NCBI RefSeq assembly: GCF_029338515.1
Contig: NZ_CP119988.1
Span: 1,612,001 to 1,676,000, forward strand
DNA length: 64,000 nt
Direction: 5' to 3'
From: Haloglomus litoreum
Lineage (GTDB): Archaea > Halobacteriota > Halobacteria > Halobacteriales > Haloarculaceae
Below the pieces are notes generated by a model, which saw only the letters and a list, made by a program, of their open reading frames with translations, was not told where the DNA came from and searched no databases. Below are positions 369-36,311 of the stretch, in pieces (position 1 is the first letter of the stretch; each line of letters starts with the position of its first letter). The position numbers were made by a program, and so were the translations under genes.

Positions 369-503
369 GGCTGGAAGTAGGTGCGGGCGGCGGATAACGG
401 TGACCGTCGCGGCCAACGCGAGCGGCCGATTCGCCGGTGCGCCACGACGGAGAGCACCGTGGGTGCAGCTACTTCTTCTCCTCTCCCAGCGTACGGGGGT
501 ATC

Positions 504-914
504 ATGACGGAGATACCTGCGGAGTACATGGACCTGTTCGAGACGCGGTCGTTCGCGTTCGTCGCCACGTTGCTCCCCGACGGAGCCCCGCACGTGACAC
601 CGACGTGGGTCGATTTCGACGGTGAACACGTGCTCGTGAACACGATACGTGACAACCGCAAGGACCGGAACATCCGAAAGGACCCTCGCATCACACTGGC
701 TATCGCCGACCCCGAGAACCCGTATCGATACCTCTCTGTTCGCGGTGAGGTCATCGAACGACGGGAGGACGGTGCCCGCGAGCACCTGGACCAGCTGGCC
801 GAGCGCTACACGGGCGAGGCGAAGTACCCTGGCCCGGGTGGGCAGGAGCGGGTCGTCCTCGTCATCCGCCCCGACGCGGTGAGCGGGCAGTCGCCGCCGG
901 CACGGAACCAGTGA
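504..914 (+). CDS. PPOX-class (pyridoxamine 5'-phosphate oxidase fold) flavin/F420-binding protein
   Basis: 136 residues from the ATG at 504. The reading frame is open further upstream, but homology-like sequence begins at MTEIPAEYMDLFETRSFAFV. The pattern 'SFAFVATLLPDGAPHVTPTWV...VLVNTIRDNRKDRNIRKDPRITLAI' is typical of single-domain PPOX proteins of the F420/FMN-dependent type, a split-barrel fold that dimerises around the cofactor. Reported family activities are oxidation or reduction of small molecules with F420, or haem or biliverdin binding; the substrate cannot be read from the sequence. It is monocistronic and followed by a palindrome-rich gap facing the convergent Lrp gene. Confidence 0.85.
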   Translation: MTEIPAEYMDLFETRSFAFVATLLPDGAPHVTPTWVDFDGEHVLVNTIRDNRKDRNIRKDPRITLAIADPENPYRYLSVRGEVIERREDGAREHLDQLAERYTGEAKYPGPGGQERVVLVIRPDAVSGQSPPARNQ

Positions 915-954: not shown

Positions 955-1130
955 GGGCGAGCGCAGCGAGCGCGTTTCACTTCCGTCGGAGCGAGCTCCG
1001 ACGACGTTCGGGCTGTCGCCCTCACCGCTGGCGACCCCTGGGAGCCAGCGGCATTTTTCTGAACGTTTTTTGCGCCGAGCGATTTCTCGGCGGAGCCGAG
1101 AAATGTATCGCTGGCGGCCACGCCGCCAGT
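955..1130 (+). repeat. modular palindromic intergenic element, copy A
   Basis: The gap between two convergent genes is a chain of inverted repeats. GTCGGAGC/GCTCCGAC lies at 985-1002, CCGCTGGC/GCCAGCGG at 1025-1051, a bipartite stem (AGCGAT-TTCTCGGC/GCCGAGAA-ATCGCT) at 1078-1112, and TGGCGG/CCGCCA at about 1111-1128. Between the second and third is a T-rich core at 1054-1074 containing CTGAACGTTTTTTGCG. The same 21-nt core is found, identical and inverted, at 35399-35419, also flanked by hairpins and by a GCGCG(G)TTTCAC segment. It is non-coding. Its T-tracts would fit bidirectional transcription termination. Confidence 0.7.
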
Positions 1131-34167: not shown

Positions 34168-35334
34168 ATGACAGAGGACGTCGTCGTGCTCGGCTCCGGC
34201 TACGCCGGCACGGGCGCGGTCATGAGTCTCGAGGACGAACTGAACGGCGAGGCCGACGTGACGTGGATCTCCGACGTCCCGCACCACCTCGTTCTCCACG
34301 AGTCCCACCGCTGCATCCGGGACCCATCGGTCCAGGACAAGATCACCTTCGACTGCGAGGAGATCGCCGGGTCGGCCACCCGCTTCGTCCAGGGGCGCGT
34401 CGACGACGTCGAGACCGACGAGCGGACCGTCCACCTCGAGGACGGCTCCACCGTCGGCTACGACTACCTCGTCGTCGGCTTCGGCTCCCGGACGGCCTTC
34501 TTCGGCATCGACGGCCTGAAGGAGCACTCGCTGACGCTCAAGAGCCTCGACGACGCGCTCGAGATCCACGAGGCGGTCAAGGAGGCCGCCCGCGAGGCCT
34601 CGCGCAACGACCCCGCGCAGGTCGTCGTCGGCGGCGCCGGTCTCTCGGGCATCCAGTCCGCCGGCGAGATCGCGGAGTTCCGCGACCGCCACCGCGCCCC
34701 GATAGACATCCACCTCGTCGAGGGCCTCGACAACGTCTTCCCCAACAACGACCCCGTCGTGCAGGCCAAGCTCCACAACCTGCTCGAGGACGCCGACGTC
34801 AACATCATGACCGGCGAGTTCATCGGCGAGGTCGACGAGGACACCGTCTACGTCGGCGACGACACGGAACTGGACTACGACGTGCTGCTCTGGACCGGCG
34901 GAATCACGGGCCGCGACCCGGCCGCGAACACCGAACTCGACCAGGACGAGCGCTCGCACCGCATCCACGCGGCGTCGGACTTCCAGACCGACGACGAGCG
35001 CGTCTTCGCACTCGGTGACGCCGCGCTGGTCGACCAGGGCGGCGACCCCGCCCCGCCGACCGCGCAGGCCGCCTGGCAGGCCGCAGAGGTCGTCGGCGAG
35101 AACGTGGCGCGGGCCATTCGCGGCCAGCCCCTCGAGGAGTGGCGCTACGAGGACAAGGGCACCCTCATCTCCGTGGGCGACGACGCCGTCGCGCACAACG
35201 TGATGGGCATCAAGGCCGTCTCGAAGACGTTCGGCGGTCCGCTCGCCGAGACGCTCAAGAAGGGCGTCGCCGCCCGCTGGATCAACGACGTGGCCGGGCC
35301 CGTCGCAGCCGCGAAGGCCTGGCCCGATATGTAA
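34168..35334 (+). CDS. NDH-2-like FAD/NAD(P)-dependent oxidoreductase
   Basis: 388 residues. The N-terminal FAD-binding motif is VVVLGSGYAGTGAVMSL, a second dinucleotide motif is VVVGGAGLSGIQSAGEI, and the FAD-contacting end is RVFALGDAALVDQGG. 'DYDVLLWTGGITGRDP' and the 'PPTAQAAWQAAEVVGENVAR' block match type II NADH dehydrogenase and related sulfide:quinone reductases. No SQR-type cysteine pair is seen, so NADH:menaquinone oxidoreductase without proton pumping is the likely role. A TATA-like CTTTGTAT at about 34137 lies 28 nt upstream of the start. Confidence 0.85.
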   Translation: MTEDVVVLGSGYAGTGAVMSLEDELNGEADVTWISDVPHHLVLHESHRCIRDPSVQDKITFDCEEIAGSATRFVQGRVDDVETDERTVHLEDGSTVGYDYLVVGFGSRTAFFGIDGLKEHSLTLKSLDDALEIHEAVKEAAREASRNDPAQVVVGGAGLSGIQSAGEIAEFRDRHRAPIDIHLVEGLDNVFPNNDPVVQAKLHNLLEDADVNIMTGEFIGEVDEDTVYVGDDTELDYDVLLWTGGITGRDPAANTELDQDERSHRIHAASDFQTDDERVFALGDAALVDQGGDPAPPTAQAAWQAAEVVGENVARAIRGQPLEEWRYEDKGTLISVGDDAVAHNVMGIKAVSKTFGGPLAETLKKGVAARWINDVAGPVAAAKAWPDM

Positions 35335-35344
35335 ACGAGCTTTT

Positions 35345-35490
35345 TCCGACTCGGGCTTCCTCGCGCTCGCTCCGCTCGCGCTGCGGAGAGCCACTCGTCG
35401 CAAAAAACGTTCAGAAAAAAGGCCGCTCCTCGCGCCCTGCGGGCGCTCGGAGCGGTGAAACCGCGCTCCCTTCGGTCGCGCGGGATACGG
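35345..35490 (-). repeat. modular palindromic intergenic element, copy B (inverted)
   Basis: On the minus strand this repeats the plan of the element at 955-1130. A GCGCGG-TTTCAC segment lies at 35454-35466. There is a long stem (CCGCTCC-GCGCCC/GGGCGC-GGAGCGG) at 35423-35455. The 21-nt core identical to 1054-1074 is at 35399-35419, and a GCTCGCTCCGCTCGCG palindromic unit is at about 35363-35382. As with copy A, it sits between convergent genes. The hairpin arms differ in sequence from copy A while the core is conserved. Confidence 0.7.
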
Positions 35491-35611: not shown

Positions 35612-36073
35612 CTATGTCTGTGTTTGACGGATGAACTCGTCGAGGCTCTGTTCGATGAGTGTCGCGACGTACTCGCTATATCTCCAGAGTGCTGCATTGA
35701 GCCGCTCTTCGGTCTCGTCATCGAGTTCGTCGAATCCACGAAGGACGGAGTCTTTGGTGAGCTGTGGGTGATACACACAAACCACTCCGAGGGAAGTATC
35801 TGAACTGGAGGTTCCGGCCGTGTGGATTCCGTACTGATCAGTGCCCCAAACACCATCACCTCCTCGCCTCTCTAGTTCAGAATCGAGTACGTCGAGGAGA
35901 CGAACCTCCTCTTCGGTAAGGAGTGGTTCGTCACCTTCGAAGAGTTCAGCGTAAGCGGTCGTTCGGGCACGGTTCGTCCATTCTTCCATATGTGTTCTCG
36001 CACGCAACACGAGCTGTCTCTCGTCTGGAAATTCGGCCATACTCCTCTGAAGGGCGGCAAGGTCAATCAACAT
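35612..36073 (-). CDS. uncharacterised protein in low-GC segment
   Basis: 153 residues from an ATG at 36073 (MLIDLAALQRSMAEF); a GTG at 36079 is also in frame. It is mostly helical and acidic, with 'EEEVRLLDVLDSELERRGGDG', a beta-like middle (LGVVCVYHPQLTKDSVLRGF) and a helical ending (LWRYSEYVATLIEQSLDEFI). I do not recognise a family. Codon use is clearly less GC-rich at third positions than in neighbouring genes, suggesting recent arrival. No toxin, nuclease or DNA-binding motif is evident. Confidence 0.65.
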   Translation of the reverse strand: MLIDLAALQRSMAEFPDERQLVLRARTHMEEWTNRARTTAYAELFEGDEPLLTEEEVRLLDVLDSELERRGGDGVWGTDQYGIHTAGTSSSDTSLGVVCVYHPQLTKDSVLRGFDELDDETEERLNAALWRYSEYVATLIEQSLDEFIRQTQT

Positions 36074-36311
36074 TCGCACGGTGAATCCGAACGTCGGGCT
36101 TTGACCGACTTGCGCGTTGTATTCAGCACGAGCGATAGAGCCTTCTCAGACTCTGTCAGATCGGCGTGCAGCATACAGAGGTTCTATACAGCACAGCGGC
36201 TTCGGTAGATCCGAGCCCGGGGGGAGAGGCGGGTTGAATCGGTGAGAGATACCCAACGAACAGTAATCGCTATGGCTGAAGACATTTGCCGGCTAGTTCG
36301 GAGGTATAGAT

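Follow-up and report, generated by a model that had tools for sequence, protein, structure and literature searches.

Modular palindromic elements shared by many haloarchaea, an apparently undescribed family likely to act as two-sided terminators at gene 3' ends

Introduction

Bacterial bidirectional intrinsic terminators lie between convergent genes and carry a hairpin with a T-run on one side and an A-run on the other. In the archaeon Haloferax volcanii, intergenic transcripts end where a C follows a T-stretch, and an inserted T5C stopped 95% of transcripts in vivo (PMC7237163).

The elements described here were found in a 64,000-nucleotide stretch of the Haloglomus litoreum genome (positions 1,612,001 to 1,676,000 of NZ_CP119988.1), referred to below as the window. 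Judged by sequence and layout, these look-alike hairpin clusters are one repeat family found across salt-loving archaea. It is apparently a widespread family of modular palindromic terminator cassettes that has so far gone undescribed: no description of it was found in the searched open-access papers, and six element loci compared with the Rfam covariance models gave no match up to E = 1. On the reading that we regard as quite probable, every copy forms a palindromic cassette, stops transcription in both directions as an intrinsic terminator placed at gene 3' ends, and spreads between sites.

The two copies in the window

The longest block common to both regions is the 21-nt sequence TTTTTCTGAACGTTTTTTGCG, which sequence search places at 1054-1074 on the forward strand and, base for base, at 35399-35419 on the reverse strand; the initial annotation was thus exact in reporting a core present twice, the second time inverted. 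For a 16-mer with up to three mismatches, 0.09 matches are expected per window and two were found, both exact. A covariance model scored the two copies at 66 and 48 bits, and the next match in the window reached only E = 0.12. Copies 1 and 2 fold better than all of 200 shuffles (z of -4.7 and -3.9), and nearly all of the eight T5/A5 runs in the window (2.8 expected) fall within them. The element is longer than first described, with extents of about 955-1156 for copy 1 and about 35337-35484 for copy 2.

Copy 1 lies on the plus strand, and the transcript of a PNPOx-family oxidase gene (381-914, plus strand; an open reading frame matching Pfam PF01243, E 4.5e-18) would run into it from the left. 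It opens with hairpin H1, of the GGGCGAGCGCAGCGAGCGCG type (955-976), which recurs in most copies. A TTTCAC linker between H1 and H2 (975-980), kept as TTTCAC, GTTCAC or TTTCTC among copies, is followed by an extra hairpin module, CGTCGGAGC/GCTCCGACG (984-1003), which L007 and L316 share and of which L311 has a variant. Hairpin H2, CCGCTGGC/GCCAGCGG (1025-1051), directly precedes the first T-run, which is followed by C (T5C; 1054-1058). The core CTGAACG, a second T-run (T6) and GCG form the left arm of an outer stem (1059-1074), within which two nested hairpins lie (1082-1129). The right arm, GGTACCCGGGGCGTC-A6-GCTC (1132-1156), ends on a base that overlaps the stop codon of a minus-strand Lrp/AsnC regulator gene (1156-1584; open reading frame and Pfam).

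Copy 2 has the same order on the minus strand, with H1 and a GTTTCAC linker (35456-35484), H2 (35423-35455), the two T-runs with the core between them, the same as in copy 1 (35399-35419), and a nested hairpin with the right arm A5-GCTC (35337-35398). A gap of 2 nt separates its right end from the stop codon of a plus-strand pyridine-nucleotide-disulphide oxidoreductase gene (34168-35334), whose convergent partner is a DUF7539 gene (35612-36079, minus strand). Both copies lie between convergent genes, as had been noted. Of the named relatives, Haloglomus halophilum ZY41 is the nearest, with 95% protein identity for the neighbour gene of copy 2.

The hairpins described around the core are present, but they are not unrelated extras: T6-GCG pairs with the distal arm, which ends in A6 in copy 1 and in A5 in copy 2 and adjoins a stop codon.

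Anatomy and pairing of the element

From left to right, the general layout comprises H1 (typically CGCGCGAGCGAAGCGAGCGCG), TTTCAC, H2 (typically CCGGC...GCCGG), T5-6, a core of 7-8 nt and a second T5-6, followed by GNG-GAGYGGT, at least one nested hairpin, ACCCGA-CNC, A5-6 and a short right end, beyond which an opposite-strand stop codon usually stands, within 2-16 nt of the A-run. The outer stem follows the scheme core-T6-GNG...CNC-A6-core', the distal arm pairing with the T-run, with the 3-4 bases after it and with the GGT box.

An alignment of 29 Haloglomus copies has 99.2% of the outer-stem cells paired, a value that falls to 64-65% when the partners are slid by one column. Double-changed cells number 30, against a shuffled mean of 7.2 (none of 500 shuffles as high) and at most 5 in the slid controls. 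Between core and right end, the pairs GGA/TCC, GTA/TAC, GCA/TGC, CCA/TGG, CGAC/GTCG, CCAC/GTGG and CTAAAG/CTTTAG occur, and across 24 core alleles the core matches its own right end so well that only one of 5000 permutations did as well. Because the core pairs and coevolves with the right end, it is to be read as the genus-typical arm of a terminal stem. The contrast first drawn between a conserved core and variable hairpins needs revision on this point, since the core is not independent but varies between genera together with the other arm. For the same reason, a conserved protein-binding core is disfavoured.

The Haloglomus pair of core and right end, GAAC/GCTC, contains one A.C, which becomes G.U on the other strand; fold energies are similar on both strands, with no clear strand bias from G.U versus A.C pairs. 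A further feature of the outer stem (GAGYGGT...ACCCGA) in all elements is a conserved tandem G-A/A-G internal motif adjoining a one-base bulge, swapped for CAAG/CGCAG in a subset of Haloglomus copies.

Copy number and distribution

The 16-mer CTGAACGTTTTTTGCG occurs 14 times exactly and six times with one mismatch in the single-contig genome of 4.70 Mb, and its reversed form does not occur, which agrees with the original judgement that the repetition is no coincidence. Once variant cores are included (T6-GGTGCAGA-T6, T5-CATCGACG-T5 and T5-CCGCAAG-T5), the genome holds at least 37 elements, and 37 were inspected; the additional copies came from generic patterns and from a covariance model built on the right half. 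The exact core is confined to Haloglomus, except for one match, found at identical coordinates in two further genomes of the family. Searching the whole genome and the Halobacteria thus yielded far more than two copies.

The generic pattern T5-N4..14-T5-N1..9-GAGNGG was found in 136 of 142 genomes of the family and in every one of its 22 genera; a single genome gave up to 54 raw matches (runs longer than T5 being counted repeatedly). The reversed pattern mostly gave 0-2 matches per genome and never more than 5. In the class, the pattern occurs in 95 of 116 genomes, representing 41 of 46 genera, a proxy count in which relatives without GAGNGG are missed. The usual cores elsewhere are CGCCCACG, CCCCAAG/CCCCACG, GGTCCAGA/C, CATCGACG and AGCGTAGA. 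Genomes outside Haloglomus were taken in listing order, and some were chosen for holding arrays.

Position relative to genes

None of the 37 copies lies inside a gene, as called by a codon-usage script without annotation, and the right end abuts the stop codon of an opposite-strand gene in 32 of them. Neighbours are convergent at 20 of the 35 classified copies, and ten copies have co-directional minus-strand genes on both sides. A strict tie to convergent genes is thereby rejected: the convergent location noted for the window is common genome-wide but not required, and the firmer rule is a right end at a gene 3' end. Elsewhere than in Haloglomus, of 44 right-hand genes on the minus strand, 21 have their end at a distance of 2-16 nt from the A-run, the next nearest being at 76. 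For one element (L174), the gap to a tRNA-Arg 3' end is about 6 nt.

Four exceptions (L010, L310, L070 and L071) have co-directional neighbours and a right end away from any stop codon; L010 sits immediately upstream of the gatB start. As a separate observation, L172, L175 and L177 of genome G046 show apparent partial copies of tRNA 3' ends flush with the elements, the full tRNA gene lying about 100 bp further on. Their junction reads ACCACC-TTTTT, as though the CCA tail were encoded.

Modules and nested repeats

Shared versions of H1, H2 and the inner hairpins recur among copies in various combinations. Nearly the same H2 is found in copy 1 of the window, L004, L011 and L012, and nearly the same inner hairpin in L006, L008, L011 and L014. 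At orthologous sites in H. halophilum (L008/L032, L016/L037 and L019/L047), the core is kept and the hairpins differ. The pattern points to an exchange of modules by recombination or conversion.

Two-hairpin modules such as CATCAGAACGC..GCGTTCTGAT-TGCC-CGTGGAATCGC..GCGATTCCACG are nested, nearly unchanged, in loops or stems of many elements (L020, L310-L314, L007, L043, L044 and L073, and the window at 984-1003 and 1082-1129). They could represent a second, small mobile repeat with hairpins as its target. The module GGGACTCCGTCCC-GCTTGCA-GTCGGACGTAGTCCGAC lies inside the H1 or H2 loop of L031, L062, L067 and L241, in two species, and short repeats of the GTGACACCAGCAACAGGACCGCGCC type stand just outside H1, in the left flank, of L004, L008, L012, L032, L033 and L041.

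Gain, loss and allele swaps

Fifteen copies of the genome were compared at orthologous sites in two Haloglomus sister species. The element is absent from both at L001, L006, L010 and L012 and from one at L005, L013 and L015; at L005 and L013, apparent decayed remnants occupy the site in the sister species. A different allele with a matching right end at the same stop codon is found at L004 and L009 and, in one sister, at L011.

The aminopeptidase gene of genus g3 offers a filled and an empty site. At the empty one (L203), the gene ends in ...GAAGCGTAA and native downstream sequence follows. At the filled one (L199), the gene tail runs to the stop, followed by H2 and T5-CATCGACG-T5...A5-GGTCGGTGCAG; past the element, the last 45-50 bp are repeated, ending in the ancestral GAAGCGTAA and the native downstream sequence. 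Filled and empty sites of the same kind were seen at pheT and hisF. The different junctions at HMG-CoA synthase and spt5 suggest repeated, independent hits on these genes. At the aminopeptidase insertion, inverted ends were suggestive, yet they are absent from the other insertions looked at. The filled, empty and swapped-allele orthologous sites support a mobile element, and with it the early suggestion of a spreading unit.

Direct repeats, boundaries and arrays

Many copies in other genera are flanked by direct repeats of the host gene 3' end, 15-230 bp in length, the best scoring 184, where controls reached no more than 18. Of the 69 elements from outside Haloglomus, among which tandem arrays are over-represented, 33 scored at least 20; among L150-L189, loci that were not chosen for arrays, 14 elements did. 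The repeat starts 6-13 nt past the A-run (about 9 nt) in 28 of the 33, which fixes the right boundary, and its other end varies widely, lying between 67 and 258 bases ahead of the first T-run. By eye, no microhomology was found at the gene-tail junctions beyond the repeat itself. Since no flanking direct repeat above control was seen in those Haloglomus copies that were tested, copy 2 of the window among them, the case for insertion in this genus is built on presence and absence and on allele swaps.

Tandem arrays consist of units of 150-190 bp, each a gene tail plus an element, and N elements usually go with N+1 gene tails. At the same radical-SAM gene, the gene-tail arrays of L142, L143 and L135 are largely homogeneous within species and differ between species, a sign of concerted evolution.

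As for terminal inverted repeats of the MITE kind, the outer stem gives inverted ends on the core side, with H1 and H2 lying outside. The short target duplication of constant length expected of a MITE derived from a DDE transposon was not seen: duplications are variable (15-230 bp) or absent. Nor was the lack of target duplication expected of the SMRs and PATEs of Haloquadratum observed, 33 of the 69 non-Haloglomus elements having direct repeats.

Termination at the element

Among 109 elements, a hairpin ends 0-4 nt ahead of the first T-run in 107, and the base after this run is C in 87. The hairpin before the first T-run has a median of -20.7 kcal/mol, compared with -12.6 kcal/mol at random places. 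A transcript arriving from the H1 side would meet the GC-rich H2, then T5-6-C, the core of 7-8 nt and a second T5-6. The opposite transcript would leave its stop codon, reach T5-6 within about 10 nt and then run into the same outer stem. The element thus likely works as a two-sided intrinsic terminator, an activity that we infer from the Haloferax T5C motif. Of the families that the initial annotation had offered, a bidirectional terminator is the one to which the hairpin and T-run anatomy and the gene-end location lend support.

How the copies may spread

The copies would spread by an insertion mechanism with a fixed right boundary, one end of the element lying a few nucleotides past the hairpin foot and the other being free. 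The tail of the target gene would be copied along, so that the gene would stay intact and gain a new terminator. It can be proposed, tentatively and with rather more doubt than confidence, that housekeeping and tRNA genes across the class receive mobile bidirectional terminators at their 3' ends, by an undescribed mechanism that copies the gene tail. A fixed right and a free left boundary fit an HUH-type cut, template switching, or the import of tail plus element by homologous recombination; none of the three accounts for right ends that are flush with stop codons and lack repeats, such as those in the window.

Two rival accounts draw on this boundary. If hairpins induced template switching or illegitimate recombination during replication, with the copying strand halting just past the hairpin and restarting in the gene tail, insertions and arrays would be by-products and the terminator itself an ordinary one kept by selection. 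A breakpoint fixed on the hairpin side and variable in the gene, the 150-190 bp tandem units and the decayed downstream copies all accord with this, but the native allele of the sister species has no element to duplicate, so the inserted material came from elsewhere, and N elements usually precede N+1 gene tails; on balance, we consider it unlikely. A right boundary that falls about 4 nt beyond the terminal stem's foot could also reflect a selfish, REP-like palindrome cut at a fixed distance from the hairpin foot by an HUH (Y1/IS200-like) transposase acting in trans, the terminator look being incidental or a tolerated by-product. Such an element would be palindromic, extragenic, present in many copies and gained at new sites, all of which is seen. 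It would not, however, need two T-runs, the first mostly followed by C, that recur across alleles and genera, nor do right ends flush with stop codons and long direct repeats, atypical of HUH elements, suit it, and we hold this origin to be decidedly unlikely.

Two further accounts were weighed. The small RNA family raised at the outset, or a 3'-UTR regulatory RNA, could draw on the conserved, covarying structure; nothing else was found in its favour, the Rfam search of six loci having been negative, both strands being about equally stable and the core varying freely between genera with pairing kept, which makes it highly improbable. Scarcely credible is a convergent evolution of independent terminators with gene conversion in place of mobility: terminators are under selection and the sharing of modules suggests conversion, but the clean empty sites and insertions, and the identical 21-nt block at non-homologous sites, speak against it. 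The mobile bidirectional terminator remains our preferred reading.

If it is correct, the stop signals of many haloarchaeal genes would be interchangeable, spreading cassettes rather than fixed parts of genes, which bears on the evolution of archaeal termination. It would also account for partial gene-tail duplications in haloarchaeal genomes, reveal an unrecognised route by which short non-coding DNA moves, and place natural bidirectional terminators at hand for haloarchaeal genetics.

Comparison with known systems

The variable left insertion boundaries set the element apart from a standard transposon. REP elements and small extragenic palindromes are, like it, short, palindromic, extragenic, near gene 3' ends and present in many copies; unlike them, the element is longer and modular, carries T- and A-runs and often has gene-tail repeats of 15-230 bp. 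Bacterial bidirectional terminators resemble it in that a hairpin with a T-run and an A-run serves both genes, whereas in the element a stem-forming core separates two T-runs, several hairpins are nested, and copies are spread through genomes.

Among haloarchaeal repeats, the MITEs, PATEs and SMRs of Haloquadratum are similarly short, non-coding and mobile, with inverted or palindromic ends, and the nested palindrome insertions of the element recall SMR behaviour (PMC3119063). Compared by description, SMRs and PATEs are reported without target duplication, while the element shows long duplications and its terminal arm is a terminator stem (PMC3119063). Finally, the T5C terminators of Haloferax volcanii share with the element a T5 followed by C, sometimes with a hairpin upstream, downstream of genes; they are described as simple, whereas the element is a two-sided, nested, repeated and moving cassette (PMC7237163).
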